DNA from: Arthrobacter sp. ok362 | Lineage (GTDB): Bacteria > Actinomycetota > Actinomycetes > Actinomycetales > Micrococcaceae | Length of the DNA: 64,000 nt | Direction of reading: 5' to 3' | Assembly (NCBI RefSeq): GCF_900102785.1 | Contig: NZ_FNGC01000002.1 | Span: 310,001 to 374,000, forward strand | Shown here: piece by piece, positions 5,259 to 46,592 of the stretch | How positions within the stretch are numbered: position 1 is the first letter of the stretch | Layout of the letters: each line of letters starts with the position of its first letter | Translations under genes and position numbers: made by a program | Notes under the pieces: generated by a model | What the model saw: only the letters and a program-made list of their open reading frames with translations | Database searches by the model: none | Told to the model about the DNA's origin: nothing

Positions 5259-7355
5259 ATGTCTGTCTCCTCCGGACGCACATTCTCCCTGCTCCCCATG
5301 CTTGGCCACACCAAAGGCAAGCGAAGCCCCGTCACCTGCGCGCTGAAGTGCGACAACGCCTGCTCGGGCGAGGTCTGCAACACCAGCACCAACAGCTACT
5401 TCCGTGACATCGCCTCCGCCACGATGTCCCGCCGCGCCGCCCTGGGCTTCGGCGCCGCCGGCGCGCTCGCCGTCGCCCTCGGCAACGCGGTGACATCCGC
5501 CGGACCCGCTGCCGCCGACGGCGGCCCGGGCCTCGCCGCTGCCGCCAAGGACGGGTTTGGAAAATCCAAGCTGCAGTTCACCGCCATCGCTCCGGTGGAC
5601 GCCACCGTGGACCAGCTCACCGTCCCCGCCGGGTTCACCTGGCGGCCGGTCATCCGCTGGGGCGACCCGCTCTTCCAGGACTCGCCGGCCTTCGATATCG
5701 ATCGCCAGAGCGCGGCGGCGCAGGCCCGCCAGTTCGGCTACAACAACGACTACACGGACATCCTGCCGGTCGACGGCTCCAAGGACCGCCGGGCCGTGCT
5801 CTTCACCAACCACGAATACACCAACGAGTCCATCATGCTGCCGGCCGGATTCGACGCCGCCGAGACCCGCGCGATCGGCCGCGCAGCCCACGGCCTCACC
5901 GTGGTCGAGTTGGAGCGCGCGAACAAGAACAAGCCCTGGAACTACGTCCAGGGCGCCGGCCTGAACCGCCGCTTCCTGACCGACACCACCTACGAGCTCG
6001 ACGGCCCGGCCGCCGGGTCCGCGCTCCTGAAGACCGCAGCCGATCCCTCCGGCCGGTCCATCAAGGGCACGCTGGGCAACTGCTCCGGCGGCACCACGCC
6101 GTGGGGCACCATCTTGTCCGGCGAGGAAAACTTCAACGGCTATTTCGCGGCGCCCGGAACTTCTGACGCCGACAAGCGCTACGGCCTGACCAGCAAGCCC
6201 ACCGCCCGCCAGTGGGAACTGGATGACCCGCGCTTCGACACCCGCAACCCCGGGTACCAGAACGAGGCCAACCGCTTCGGCTGGATCGTGGAAGTGGACC
6301 CGCTCGATCCCTCCTCCACGCCCCGCAAGCACTCCGCGATGGGCCGCTTCAAGCATGAGGGCGCCAACGTGATCGTCGCCAAGTCCGGCCACGTCGTGGC
6401 CTACATGGGCGACGACGAGCGCTTCGACTACCTGTACAAGTTCGTCTCGGCCGGCACATACCGGCCCGGCAAAACGGCGGAGGACCGCAAGAACAACCTC
6501 GCACTGCTCTCGGAGGGTGACCTGTACGTCGCCAAGTTCACGGGCAATTCGGCGGCCGCCGGGTTCGACGGCGCGGGCAAGCTTCCGGCCGATGGGGCCT
6601 TCGACGGCGCAGGGGAATGGCTGCCCCTCGTGGTCGGCGGACAGTCCAAGGTGGCCGGGATGTCCGTGGAAGAGGTGCTCGTGTACACCCGCCTCGCCGC
6701 CGACAAGGTGGGGCCCACGAAGATGGACCGCTGCGAAGACGTCCAGCCCAGCCTGCATACCGGCAAGGTCTACGTGGTCTGCACAAACAACGCGGACCGC
6801 GGCAAGCCCGGCAAGGAAGGGGCCACCGAGGTCAACCCCCGCACCCTCAACCGCGACGGCCACATCGTCGAAATCACCGAAACCGGGGACCAGAGCTCCA
6901 CAACCTTTGGCTGGAACCTGCTGATGGTCTGCGGCGATCCGGCCAAGAACTCCGCCGCCTACTTCGCCGGGTTCCCCGCCAGCCAGGTCTCACCCATCTC
7001 CTGCCCGGACAACGTGGCCTTCGACTCCGTGGGCAACCTGTGGATCTCCACCGACGGCGCGCCCTCCAGCATCGGCTACGCCGACGGGCTCTTCAAAGTG
7101 ACCTTGGACGGTGCCGAACGGGGCAAGGTGGAGCAGTTCCTCGCGGTCCCGCGCGACGCCGAGACCTGCGGCCCCGTCATCCACGACGACGAACGCACCG
7201 TATTCGTCGCCGTTCAGCACCCGGGCGAGGAAGGCACATTCGCCGAGCAGCACTCCTACTTCCCGGACTACGTCGCCGCCGGCGCGACGCCGAAGCCCGG
7301 CCAGGTCCGTGCCCCGCGTCCGTCCGTGGTCCAGGTGTTCCGCACGGGCGGCTAG
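5259..7355 (+). CDS. phoX: PhoX-type alkaline phosphatase, Tat-exported
   Basis: A 698-residue PhoX-family phosphatase. These are monomeric Ca/Fe-dependent phosphomonoesterases that release phosphate outside the cell. The twin-arginine signal (SRRAALGFGAAGALAVALG) lies about 50 residues in. Before it is a Cys-rich leader (CALKCDNACSGEVC) with a SLLPMLGHTKGKRS start, as I recall for other actinobacterial PhoX. The body carries the family blocks LGNCSGGTTPWGTILSGEENFNGY and SCPDNVAFDSVGNLWISTDG. The start ATG 5259 has GGAAGG 7 bases upstream. The gene stands alone, bracketed by palindromes P2 (upstream) and P1 (downstream). No PHO box could be assigned. Confidence 0.92.
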   Translation: MSVSSGRTFSLLPMLGHTKGKRSPVTCALKCDNACSGEVCNTSTNSYFRDIASATMSRRAALGFGAAGALAVALGNAVTSAGPAAADGGPGLAAAAKDGFGKSKLQFTAIAPVDATVDQLTVPAGFTWRPVIRWGDPLFQDSPAFDIDRQSAAAQARQFGYNNDYTDILPVDGSKDRRAVLFTNHEYTNESIMLPAGFDAAETRAIGRAAHGLTVVELERANKNKPWNYVQGAGLNRRFLTDTTYELDGPAAGSALLKTAADPSGRSIKGTLGNCSGGTTPWGTILSGEENFNGYFAAPGTSDADKRYGLTSKPTARQWELDDPRFDTRNPGYQNEANRFGWIVEVDPLDPSSTPRKHSAMGRFKHEGANVIVAKSGHVVAYMGDDERFDYLYKFVSAGTYRPGKTAEDRKNNLALLSEGDLYVAKFTGNSAAAGFDGAGKLPADGAFDGAGEWLPLVVGGQSKVAGMSVEEVLVYTRLAADKVGPTKMDRCEDVQPSLHTGKVYVVCTNNADRGKPGKEGATEVNPRTLNRDGHIVEITETGDQSSTTFGWNLLMVCGDPAKNSAAYFAGFPASQVSPISCPDNVAFDSVGNLWISTDGAPSSIGYADGLFKVTLDGAERGKVEQFLAVPRDAETCGPVIHDDERTVFVAVQHPGEEGTFAEQHSYFPDYVAAGATPKPGQVRAPRPSVVQVFRTGG

Positions 7356-7369
7356 CCTCCTCCCGGCAC

Positions 7370-7435
7370 AGCAACGCGGGTTCACTTCGCGCCCATGTGG
7401 GGCCCTGCATGGGCGCGAAGTGAACCCGCGTTGCT
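7370..7435. repeat. Palindromic repeat family P1, copy 1
   Basis: A perfect 28-bp stem (7370-7397 with 7408-7435) and a 10-base loop, starting 14 bases after the phoX stop. Core AACGCGGG-TTCACTTCGCGC is shared with 37329-37393, where paired positions differ in a compensatory way. It has no U tract, so it may end or stabilise the phoX transcript rather than act as a classical terminator. Confidence 0.85.
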
Positions 7436-20176: not shown

Positions 20177-20233
20177 AATGGCCCCGGTTCCTCACAACGT
20201 TCGAGTCTTCCGTTGTGCCGAACCGGGGCCATT
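20177..20233 (+). terminator. Terminator hairpin after the prenyl synthase
   Basis: Perfect 14-bp arms AATGGCCCCGGTTC (20177-20190) and complement (20220-20233), with an inner 7-bp stem CACAACG/CGTTGTG (20193-20199, 20211-20217), followed by TTCTCC. It probably ends the menG operon. Confidence 0.8.
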
Positions 20234-35853: not shown

Positions 35854-37317
35854 GTGTCAACGAACACCCCTGTAGGAACCGCCGCCCGCCCGCTGCGCGT
35901 CGCCGTCGTCGGCTCCGGTCCCGCCGGCGTCTACGCCGCGGACATCCTGACCAAGAGCGAGGCCGTCAAGAGCGGCGAGCTCACCGTCAGCATCGACCTC
36001 TTCGACCGCTACCCGGCACCCTATGGCTTGATCCGCTACGGCGTGGCCCCCGACCACCCCCGCATCAAGGGCATCGTCAACGCCCTGCACAAGGTCCTGG
36101 ACCGCGGCGACATCCGTTTCTTCGGCAACGTGGACTACGGCACGGACCTGTCCATCGATGACCTCCGCAACCACTACGACGCCGTCATCTTCGCCACCGG
36201 GGCCATCAAGGACGCGGACCTCAACATCCCCGGCATCGAGCTCGAGGGCTCCTACGGCGGCGCCGACTTCGTGTCCTGGTACGACGGCCACCCCGACGTG
36301 TCCCGCGAATGGCCGCTGGAGGCCAAGGAAATCGCCGTGATCGGCAACGGCAACGTGGCCCTGGACGTGGCCCGCATGCTCTCCAAGCACGCCGACGACC
36401 TCCTGGTCTCCGAAATCCCGGACAACGTCTACGCCGGGCTGAAGTCCTCGCCCGTCACGGACGTGCACGTGTTCGGCCGCCGCGGGCCGGCCCAGGTCAA
36501 GTTCACGCCCCTGGAGCTGCGCGAACTCTCCCACTCCAAGGACGTGGACATCATCCTCTACGCCGAGGACTTCGAGTTCGACGCCGAGTCGGACCGGCAG
36601 ATCCAGAGCAACAACCAGACCAAGACCATGGTGGGCACGCTCACTAACTGGATCGCCGAACAGCCCGAGGACCTCTCCGAACTCACCGCGTCCCGCCGGC
36701 TGCACCTGCACTTCCTGCACAGCCCGGTCGAGGTGTACGACAGCGCCGAGGCTCCCGGCCGCGTCGCCGGGATCAAATTCGAGCGCACCGAACTGGACGG
36801 CACCGGCAACGCCCGCGGCACCGGCGAGTTTGTCGATTACCCGGTCCAGGCCGTGTACCGCGCCATCGGCTACTTCGGTTCCGCCCTCCCCGAGATCGAG
36901 TTCGATCACAGTAAGGGCGTCGTCCCGAACGACGGCGGCCGTGTCCTGGATGCCGCCGGCACCCCCGTGCCGGGGATTTACGCGACCGGTTGGATCAAGC
37001 GCGGGCCCGTCGGGCTGATCGGCCACACCAAGGGTGACGCCCTCGAAACCGTGACCTACCTGCTCGAGGACCGCGAAAACCTGCCACTGGCCGCCACACC
37101 CGCTCCGGAGGCGATCGTCGAACTCCTGGCGGCCCGCGGCGTCGAGTACACCAGCTGGGAAGGCTGGCTGGCCCTGGACGAGCACGAGCGCGCCCTCGGT
37201 GAGAAGGCCACTGCGGCCGGCGAATCGCACGGGGTCGCCGTCCAGCGCGAGCGCATCAAGGTGGTCCCCCGCGAGGACATGGTGGAGATCTCCCGCGGCG
37301 CCGCCGTCGAGGTCTAG
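35854..37317 (+). CDS. fprA: Ferredoxin-NADP reductase (FprA type), copy 1
   Basis: 487 aa, adrenodoxin-reductase-like flavoprotein that passes electrons between NADPH and ferredoxin. The FAD fold is VAVVGSGPAGVYAADIL, then YPAPYGLIRYGVAPDHPR, the NADP motif AVIGNGNVALDVARML, and the C-terminal ATGWIKRGPVGLIGHTKGDA. GTG 35854 has AAGGA 8 bases upstream. Its position beside cysG and near nirA suggests it reduces the ferredoxin used by NirA. A close paralogue lies at 57118. It is bracketed by palindromes P2 and P1, like phoX. Confidence 0.93.
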   Translation: MSTNTPVGTAARPLRVAVVGSGPAGVYAADILTKSEAVKSGELTVSIDLFDRYPAPYGLIRYGVAPDHPRIKGIVNALHKVLDRGDIRFFGNVDYGTDLSIDDLRNHYDAVIFATGAIKDADLNIPGIELEGSYGGADFVSWYDGHPDVSREWPLEAKEIAVIGNGNVALDVARMLSKHADDLLVSEIPDNVYAGLKSSPVTDVHVFGRRGPAQVKFTPLELRELSHSKDVDIILYAEDFEFDAESDRQIQSNNQTKTMVGTLTNWIAEQPEDLSELTASRRLHLHFLHSPVEVYDSAEAPGRVAGIKFERTELDGTGNARGTGEFVDYPVQAVYRAIGYFGSALPEIEFDHSKGVVPNDGGRVLDAAGTPVPGIYATGWIKRGPVGLIGHTKGDALETVTYLLEDRENLPLAATPAPEAIVELLAARGVEYTSWEGWLALDEHERALGEKATAAGESHGVAVQRERIKVVPREDMVEISRGAAVEV

Positions 37318-37328
37318 CCTCCAAGCAG

Positions 37329-37393
37329 AACAACGCGGGGTCACTTCGCGCGCATCCCAGGCGGGATTATGCGCGAAGTGACCCCGCGTTGTT
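37329..37393. repeat. Palindromic repeat family P1, copy 2
   Basis: Perfect 23-bp stem (37329-37351 with 37371-37393) enclosing a small ATCCC/GGGAT inner hairpin, 11 bases after the fprA stop. It shares the AACGCGGG-TCACTTCGCGC core with 7370-7435. Two stem positions differ on both arms so that pairing is kept. Confidence 0.85.
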
Positions 37394-45170: not shown

Positions 45171-46489
45171 CGCAGTGTTCCTTCTGAAACGGGCGAAGTT
45201 CCGTCTGAGGAGTGCGAAGCGGCGGCCCGCAGTTCTTTGGCCCGCAGCTCCTTGGCCCGCAGCTGCTTCGGTCCCGCCGACAGGAGATGGCCTACCGCGA
45301 TCTGGCCGAGGGCCACTGCCAGCAGGAGGGCCAAGGGAAGCGTCCAGGAGTTGGTGGCGCTGTGCAGCAGGCCCATGCCGAACGGCCCGAGGGTCGCGAA
45401 CAGATACCCTGCGGACTGGGCCACGGTGGACAGCGCGGTGGTCTCGGCCGTGGTGCGGCCGCTGCGGCTGATCATCACCATGACCAGCGGGAAGATGCCG
45501 AGACCGAAGCCCAGCAGCACCGCGGTCAGTGGAGCCCAGGCAGCTGGCAGGACCAGCATGGCCAGGACGCCGAGGGCCATGGTCACGGTGGCCAGGTAGA
45601 ACGCCGTCCGCAGCATCCGGGGGCGTGAGCCGATGGCGACCAGCACCATGCCGGCGGGGACGGAGACGAGCTGCATGAGTCCGAACATGAGCCCGCTGCC
45701 GGAGGCGGTGAGGCCCATCGTGGCCAGCATGTAGGGGAACCAGCTGAGCACGGCATAGGCCAGGAGTGCCTGCACCGTGAAGCCGAGGGTGATCAGCGCG
45801 CCGGTGCGGGTCCGCAGCAGGGGCCATGGGGAAACCCGGGCGGCCTTTCCGGCGGACGCGTTGCGGTGGGCGTGCACCGCGATCGGAATGAAGCCGAGGC
45901 AGGCGCCCAGGGCCAGGAAACCGATTGAACCGACGCCCGCCGAGGGTGAGCCAAGGGCCTGCGCCACCGGAACGATCAGCACGGCGGTGACGGTAGCGCC
46001 TGTGGTCATGGTCAACGTGTAGACGGCGGTCATGAGGGACGTGCGGTCCGCGAAATGCACCCTGATGAAGGAGGGCATGGCCACGTTGCAGATGGCCAGC
46101 CCGGACATCCCCGCCACGGTGCCGGCCAGCAGCATCCCGGTGGACGGAACTCCGCGGAGAAGCAGCCCTGCCGCCAGCATCACGAGGGAGAGCAGGATGG
46201 CCTTTTCCAGTCCCAGCTGCCGGGTAAGCCAGGACGTGGCAGCACCGGCCACCGCGAAACACAGCGTGGGGATCGAGGGGATCAGGGCTGCGATCAGCGG
46301 GCCGTAGCCCAGGACAGCCTGCAGATCGTGGAAGAGCGCGGCGGCGCCGGTGATGCCGGCGCGCAGGTTCAGCCCGATGAGCACGAGCGCCACGACGCCG
46401 GCCACGATCACGCCGCGCGGGCGGACCGCTCCGGGTGGAGCTGTCTGGGAAAGTGCGGAAACCGCCGTGCCGCTAGCCATACTCATCAT
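45167..46489 (-). CDS. CynX/NimT-type MFS transporter
   Basis: 440 aa, 12 TM segments. LVLIGLNLRAGITGAAALFHDLQ near the start resembles the CynX/NimT (cyanate / 2-nitroimidazole) branch. The C-terminus carries a repeated KELRAKELRA stretch. ATG 46489 follows TAACCT by 6 bases on the minus strand (leaderless). It forms an operon with the GntR regulator. Substrate unknown. Confidence 0.85.
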   Translation of the reverse strand: MMSMASGTAVSALSQTAPPGAVRPRGVIVAGVVALVLIGLNLRAGITGAAALFHDLQAVLGYGPLIAALIPSIPTLCFAVAGAATSWLTRQLGLEKAILLSLVMLAAGLLLRGVPSTGMLLAGTVAGMSGLAICNVAMPSFIRVHFADRTSLMTAVYTLTMTTGATVTAVLIVPVAQALGSPSAGVGSIGFLALGACLGFIPIAVHAHRNASAGKAARVSPWPLLRTRTGALITLGFTVQALLAYAVLSWFPYMLATMGLTASGSGLMFGLMQLVSVPAGMVLVAIGSRPRMLRTAFYLATVTMALGVLAMLVLPAAWAPLTAVLLGFGLGIFPLVMVMISRSGRTTAETTALSTVAQSAGYLFATLGPFGMGLLHSATNSWTLPLALLLAVALGQIAVGHLLSAGPKQLRAKELRAKELRAAASHSSDGTSPVSEGTLR

Positions 46490-46592
46490 CTTCAAAGGTT
46501 AGACGTTTGATGTTTGAGACTCAGTCTTTAGTGGCGAATATCTCGGCAAGTGACACGTTCGCCGAAGGCGCCGCCGGTGCAGGCAGTGGTTG

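Follow-up and report, generated by a model that had tools for sequence, protein, structure and literature searches.

Two described systems of dispersed palindromes come closest to the elements analyzed here. In the REP-rayt-REP units of gammaproteobacteria, as presented in the cited portions of Nunvar 2010 (PMC2817692), the enzyme gene lies between two dispersed palindromes, one of which follows the stop codon of that gene at a short distance; the enzyme and its palindrome have diversified jointly, and symmetry is kept by complementary changes. The REPINs of Pseudomonas, according to the cited portions of Bertels and Rainey 2011 (PMC3116915), have inverted invariant ends, a spacer conserved in length and not in sequence, hairpin potential, and frequent compensatory changes. 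Arthrobacter livingstonensis is listed in a table of a REP survey (PMC12306157), and REP counts for the genus are thus in print.

We analyzed two palindromes, P1 and P2, in a 64-kb stretch of the genome of Arthrobacter sp. ok362 (hereafter, the window). They belong to a family that we call family A. Compared with REP-rayt-REP units as portrayed in the portions of PMC2817692 cited above, the present system likewise has a bracketed enzyme gene, a palindrome shortly after the stop codon of this gene, joint diversification, and complementary changes. Unlike in those units, the enzyme is PD-(D/E)XK-like with an AbiEi-like N-terminus instead of an IS200/IS605-type Y1 transposase, the palindromes are 50–67 nt long, often near perfect and without a GTAG head, and the named hosts are actinobacteria. 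Family A shares with the REPINs of the PMC3116915 excerpts its invariant inverted ends, a fixed-length spacer, a hairpin, frequent compensatory changes, and dispersal in extragenic space, but differs from those Pseudomonas elements in that it has no RAYT, is shorter (67 nt), and forms a near-continuous stem in place of two REPs each with an inner palindrome.

Our working model is a palindrome-nuclease-palindrome system that would be analogous to REP-rayt-REP despite an unrelated enzyme, with an AbiEi-like/PD-(D/E)XK-like nuclease apparently occupying the place of RAYT. P1 and P2 would then be REP/REPIN-like miniature elements with about 20 copies in their own genome, and would represent one of several palindrome families, each with its cognate nuclease; we put the probability of this reading at roughly 0.6. 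REP-like palindromes in genomes devoid of RAYT have been without a candidate enzyme; if the present enzyme acts on its palindromes, its class would, to our knowledge, be new to palindrome dispersal. In the present case, matching palindromes enclose members of one gene family in several lineages, and this recurrent bracketing makes the origin and spread of REP-like repeats directly testable. Among the matches listed in full-text literature searches (PMC), there was no description of family A or of palindrome-tied DUF559/AbiEi nucleases.

P1 and P2 in the window

Both palindromes lie in tandem gene pairs, P1 between phoX and argS and P2 between an oxidoreductase gene and the gene for topoisomerase IB (Table 1).

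Table 1. Positions of the two palindromes, their outer arms, and the neighboring genes in the window
Feature	Coordinates	Strand	Remark
P1, family-A palindrome, 66 nt	7370..7435	.	loop region about 7397-7408
P1 left outer arm, positions 1-13	7372..7384	+	T at position 10, other copies G
P1 right outer arm, positions 1-13	7421..7433	-	carries matching change at position 10
P2, family-A palindrome, 65 nt	37329..37393	.	
P2 left outer arm, positions 1-13	37331..37343	+	
P2 right outer arm, positions 1-13	37379..37391	-	
phoX (PF05787), upstream of P1	5244..7355	+	start from simple gene caller
argS (arginyl-tRNA synthetase), downstream of P1	7490..9316	+	
pyridine nucleotide-disulphide oxidoreductase (labelled fprA), upstream of P2	35854..37317	+	
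topoisomerase IB, downstream of P2	37470..38471	+	

An earlier note on this DNA had described P1 as a perfect 28-bp palindrome, and two perfect 28-nt arms were indeed found, which extend to 33 nt at 94%; P2 has two arms of 23 nt at 100%. These arms are far above chance: a 20-nt arm pattern occurred four times in the window (both arms of P1 and of P2) against an expectation of 0.02, and four or more occurrences arose in 0 of 100 shuffles. The folding energies were -64.5 kcal/mol for P1 (z -10.7) and -61.8 kcal/mol for P2 (z -12.2), equaled in neither case by any of 200 shuffles. The same note had both copies following a stop codon, and this holds: P1 lies 14 nt past the TAG at 7353-7355 and P2 11 nt past the TAG at 37315-37317. 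It had also listed two stem pairs that differ between the copies on both arms. Both double changes are real, one from G-C to A-T at the second pair and the other from T-A to G-C within CGGG[T/G]TCAC, but the list was incomplete, as P2 has in addition one altered base in its inner part and is 1 nt shorter in total. At position 10, it is P1 that deviates from the family-A norm, in both arms alike.

Rfam gave no match at gathering score across the 64 kb of the window. A further hairpin, AATGGCCCCGGTTCCTYACAACG, at window positions 20177-20233, is conserved with its surroundings in the ok362 genome and in G064, G058, and G024, and is absent from that place in G061; it may simply be a conserved regulatory or RNA element of an ordinary kind.

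Copies, anatomy, and surroundings of family A

Family A was searched for with a covariance model built from 14 copies of the ok362 genome, together with half-arm patterns. In the ok362 genome (4.71 Mb), the model matched 20 places at E≤1, of which 19 were used and the 20th, a partial match, was dropped. The genome-wide covariance search suggested by the earlier note thus yielded further copies, and its view of P1 and P2 as REP-like dispersed elements gained from two relatives with covarying arms: G008 has 46 copies (92 matches among 150 scored candidates, an unsaturated search), and G014 has at least 75 (149 of 150 scored candidates matched, a saturated set that may favor clean copies). The model was run on 39 genomes, 25 from the genus (ok362 included) and 14 from other families of the order, and matched at E≤0.01 in 25/25 and 3/14, respectively. 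Copy number and match strength differed widely within the genus, from a few weak matches in some genomes to the level of G014.

A pattern scan of one genome per species (84,980 species), which may omit records of the ok362 genome, gave 102 stretches, mostly from Arthrobacter, Pseudarthrobacter, and Paenarthrobacter, with some from Leucobacter and Arenimonas and single others. Carriage of family A by phages was considered and rejected, as the phage records searched contained none. Among plasmid records, only two had family A, both of Arthrobacter sp. StoSoilB13. The Leucobacter stretches (L104, L134, L160, L170, and L184) and those from Arenimonas MAGs (L094, L101, L114, L118, L128, and L182) hold palindromes with a GGGTCACTTC core, which the scan required; their core length is about equal to that of family A, and several lie at contig ends. 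This suggests that they are additional high-copy families.

The REPIN-like anatomy of family A would suit a RAYT-type (Y1) transposase that moves the palindromes in trans, which is how the earlier note had explained the pattern. We give this explanation almost no credence, since a profile search with PF01797 (Y1_Tnp) found no match in any of the 25 genus genomes, high-copy ones included; the ok362 genome was among them, and a look for such a gene elsewhere in that genome, which the note had advised, was thus negative. The same search was positive in 5/14 control genomes and in 1/14 genomes of other families. When the palindrome foot was inspected for the GTAG/CGTC tetranucleotide, two positions beyond position 1 were not invariant (146 arms of G014 and 92 of G008), and the tetranucleotide was absent from the feet of P1 and P2. 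Family A stands outside REP/RAYT as defined, because the defining enzyme was tested for and is absent, yet it probably works like REP/RAYT.

A family-A unit is normally 67 nt long. In each arm, positions 1–13 and about 20–22 are nearly invariant, whereas 14–15 and 17–19 are variable yet paired above expectation, and the arms enclose a 13-nt loop that varies in sequence and is almost constant in length. In G008 (46 copies, 92 arms, matches on both strands), 45 of the 46 copies measure 67 nt; a single base accounts for 98–100% at positions 1–4, 6–13, and 19–22 and for 86/92 at position 5. The variable positions 14, 15, 17, and 18 pair in 86, 86, 89, and 82%, against expected values of 73, 77, 81, and 76%, and the 13-nt loop is near random (0.1–0.5 bits) at fixed length. 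In the 73 G014 copies of 67 nt (146 arms), positions 4–13 are invariant except for one base at position 5, as are positions 20 and 22. Here, positions 14, 15, 17, 18, and 19 pair in 89, 69, 68, 67, and 63% (expected 65, 35, 47, 44, and 47%), while pairing within the loop is no better than expected. Half-loops are drawn from a limited repertoire, and copies in the ok362 genome are more decayed, at 65–72 nt. At one seemingly orthologous site, the loop is inverted between unchanged arms in one genome (L089 versus L105, L179, and L187).

The pairing was also followed at a single orthologous place, the P2 slot behind the oxidoreductase gene. One 63-nt copy, measured from position 1 of one arm to position 1 of the other, was compared from each of 26 genomes. 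By counts on a rough tree from about 250 nt, the outer 16 pairs had 1.8 substitutions per pair versus 9.0 in the next 8, and about 12.6 double changes converted one standard pair into another. In transcript orientation, G-U and A-C mismatches were equally frequent, at 54:48 and 3:5 (pooled 57:53, p 0.78), which weakens the case for selection on pairing at the RNA level; as the main cause of the symmetry, such selection is unsupported. According to the earlier note, double changes imply either selection for pairing or a copying mechanism that keeps palindromes. The first part lost ground with the lack of a G-U excess, in so far as it concerns RNA, and symmetry at the DNA level or symmetry-keeping copying fits the double changes better. 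Compensatory changes in genomic palindromes need not mean functional RNA.

A palindrome superfamily with the pattern ACGC-N4-TCACYT...ARGTGA-N4-GCGT was found in 55/61 genus genomes (reversed control, 1/61), with lengths near 37, 47, and 59 nt among the matches listed and with N4 varying between genomes. The pattern is strong and may contain a universal four-letter arm code; the variants could not each be tied to a nuclease.

Intrinsic terminators, some of them without a U-tract, are GC-rich hairpins that immediately follow stop codons or separate convergent genes, and family A is found in the same two kinds of place. The 126 classed elements occupied 65 tandem, 52 convergent, and 9 divergent gaps, compared with 98, 12, and 65 in 175 element-free control gaps; classes were assigned with our own simple gene caller, leaving out 13 of 139 elements that overlapped a gene or lay at a locus edge (7/139 were counted as overlaps with a called gene). 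In three genomes, the median distance from the 3' gene end was 15, 20, and 6.5 nt; 132/173 distances did not exceed 40 nt. This closeness to stop codons, and the excess of convergent and deficit of divergent gaps, would be expected if the elements were bidirectional terminators or 3'-end stabilizers under selection, with gene conversion producing their likeness within a genome and with a nuclease gene that is merely flanked by terminators. We regard this explanation as unlikely. The G-U excess is absent, no terminator-like site was called at P1 or P2, and termination requires neither an invariant arm sequence nor a fixed loop length. The stem with U-tract and RNA-level pairing of an intrinsic terminator was not found in family A, which does have a T-rich tail, if a weak one. 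Family A differs from such terminators by its blocks of invariant sequence, the constant length of its loop, its occurrence as dispersed families, and its cognate nuclease gene.

Probable nuclease genes between palindromes

Genes located between close pairs of elements (23 pairs, 30-odd genes) were searched for a partner of family A. One gene recurred, in G014 and G008, encoding a protein of ~300 aa, and tblastn over the loci examined added it in G023, AL07, and Hiyo4. Family A lies on both sides of the nuclease gene in G008, G023, SO3 (=G014), AL07, and Hiyo4, five loci that are syntenic and therefore amount to about one observation. None of the ok362 loci examined contains the gene. Hiyo4 has a second nuclease, about one-third identical, which is flanked by a different palindrome of 57 nt with the arm CGAGATGGCAyTT, further copies of which lie elsewhere in Hiyo4.

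Homologs of 22–37% identity were detected in Arthrobacter, Tsukamurella, and a phage-labelled contig, where the flanking palindromes are not family A but their own. Searches of plasmid and phage collections that relied solely on protein similarity yielded eight homolog loci, L489–L496. A matching palindrome is present on each side in L489, L491, L492, and L495, and a diverged palindrome of the same type on both sides in L490; L494 has a full palindrome downstream and half of one upstream, L496 has half a palindrome on each side, resembling terminal repeats, and the Nonomuraea locus L493 has no flanking palindrome. A word of at least 13 nt common to both 200-nt flanks was detected for 6/8 of these nuclease homologs versus 4/~622 other genes called in L089–L190 and L489–L496 (Fisher p 7e-11). 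A palindrome shared by both flanks is thus usual for the nuclease and rare for other genes, which argues against a gene that terminators happen to flank. Three viral nuclease-like proteins (119–240 aa), retrieved with a pattern for the C-terminal domain, had no long word in common between their flanks.

Palindrome and nuclease also go together across organisms. When five nuclease palindromes were compared with 72,556 plasmid records, each had matches solely in its nuclease-bearing organism: 12 and 20 places in Tsukamurella (E limits 1 and 0.01), 39 and 11 in StoSoilB13, and 15 in ERGS1:01 (E limit 1 for all three). Because both strands of one palindrome can be counted, real sites number at least half of these places. 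In the nuclease tree, the four family-A enzymes grouped with support 100 and two GAGATGGCA enzymes from two species with support 99; related nucleases share a palindrome and distant ones differ. Hiyo4, StoSoilB13, and Tsukamurella each have two or three such nucleases.

The protein itself probably combines an AbiEi-like N-terminus with a weakly matched C-terminal domain of the PD-(D/E)XK-like (DUF559/MTES_1575) kind. An alignment of twelve homologs spans about 300 aa, with invariant residues including S207, E210, R214, D242, G256, H259, Q264, D268, and R271, and with D255 in 11/12. The N-terminal part matches AbiEi profiles (PADLOC) in all four proteins scanned. Weak C-terminal matches to MTES_1575/DUF559 (Pfam; best E 5e-7 to 4e-3) were found in 9 of 11 homologs scanned, L131 and L494 being without a match; DUF559 was above cut-off in three (L492, L495, and L496) and MTES_1575 in none. 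The bracketed gene would share a nuclease-like C-terminal domain with DUF559/MTES_1575 nucleases (Pfam) and an AbiEi-like N-terminal part with AbiE type IV toxin-antitoxin systems (PADLOC), but unlike either, it has both parts fused and lies between cognate palindromes. NCBIfam gave nothing for two homologs and PHROGs nothing convincing for three; a profile search of solved structures with the nuclease reached a best E of 0.054, and structure prediction gave a mean pLDDT of 42.9. The nuclease domain presumably resembles Vsr. Family-A nucleases have QYDG where L489, L491, and three Tsukamurella proteins have EYDG, and Q appears to replace what we take to be the usual acidic residue of the nuclease motif. 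Cleavage by family-A nucleases is uncertain on this account.

The Q in family-A enzymes, like the AbiEi-like N-terminus, would also suit a link that consists in regulation or defense, in which the AbiEi-like part binds palindromes at its own gene and dispersed ones and the copies spread by other means. We consider this rather doubtful, as it leaves unexplained both the copy-number range within the genus and the matching of one arm to the other at drifting positions. The nuclease gene might instead be a homing-like passenger that entered pre-existing palindromes of other origin. L496, with half a palindrome per side, does resemble an interrupted palindrome, and a second repeat inserted inside family-A elements of two genomes indicates that such palindromes can be targets. 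A whole palindrome lies on each side in most cases, however, and the palindrome family goes with the nuclease lineage, making a homing-like origin very improbable.

In the palindrome-nuclease-palindrome model, the N-terminal part would recognize the pair of invariant outer arms with the constant distance between them; invariant arms at a fixed spacing are consistent with a protein that reads the element as DNA. By analogy with REP-rayt-REP, the nuclease would bind and nick the palindrome, or a cruciform formed by it, and repair of the nick would spread copies to new sites and rewrite one arm from the other. Such rewriting could be the reason why variable positions still match between arms. Copies would last where they are least harmful, directly behind stop codons, and the long hairpin at this position may end or protect transcripts. 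If the enzyme does act on the palindromes, their near-perfection could be explained by arm-to-arm repair and not by RNA selection.

More broadly, it seems somewhat likelier than an even bet that these proteins form a new actinobacterial class, in which fused AbiEi-like/PD-(D/E)XK-like nucleases each recognize, spread, and keep symmetric their own 50–67-nt palindromes and sit between them. If so, the RAYT-REP way of life would have evolved independently a second time, and the class would imply an enzyme/arm-sequence code, with one palindrome family per nuclease lineage.

Orthologous slots and vertical history

By a set criterion, the P2 slot holds family A in 31/60 genus genomes, and a displaced or short family-A element was seen by eye in two more (G059 and G062). 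Such long vertical retention is a point in favor of regulation or defense. Of the remaining 27 genomes, 24 have another hairpin (arm score ≥10) in this slot, as selected terminators or stabilizers would predict, and G010, G018, and G045 have none of note. At the P1 slot, family A is present in G061 and G058, and a different hairpin family in G064 and G024. A third slot (46412-46592) has a family-A element in G061 and G064, a one-arm remnant in G019, and none in the ok362 genome, a pattern that points to loss through decay.

When elements were compared with their orthologous sites (357 distinct comparisons), the site held an intact family-A element in 276 cases, a decayed one in 41, another hairpin in 25, and none called in 15. 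No clean empty site from which a target duplication could be read occurred among the 357 comparisons, and 0/15 uncalled sites formed a plain inserted/empty pair; it is from copy number alone that we infer movement of family A. A strict genome-wide dialect at the P2 slot was refuted by G008 and G053, in which the slot copy is unlike most of their listed copies.

Several other repeats were observed at these slots. The P2 slot of G016, G020, G063, G073, G050, and G002 contains a different family of 64–66 nt with the arm AGCGCGAACNGGCAGCTAATGACC. A second repeat of ~75 nt (core CCTAGCCTCGCAAGCTCGGCCAGGGAACCCTGCGGG) interrupts a family-A palindrome at an identical point in two genomes, in L167 near 5338-5386 (intact ortholog L096:7022-7085) and in L427 (G059, P2 slot), as if it targeted family-A palindromes. 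At the phoX slot, family-B hairpins (GACGCTCYCTCAC) form nested arrays in L195, L198, L199, L201, L215, and L219, in which several left half-arms (with a period of about 32–33 nt in L219) are followed by a central hairpin and then by right half-arms.
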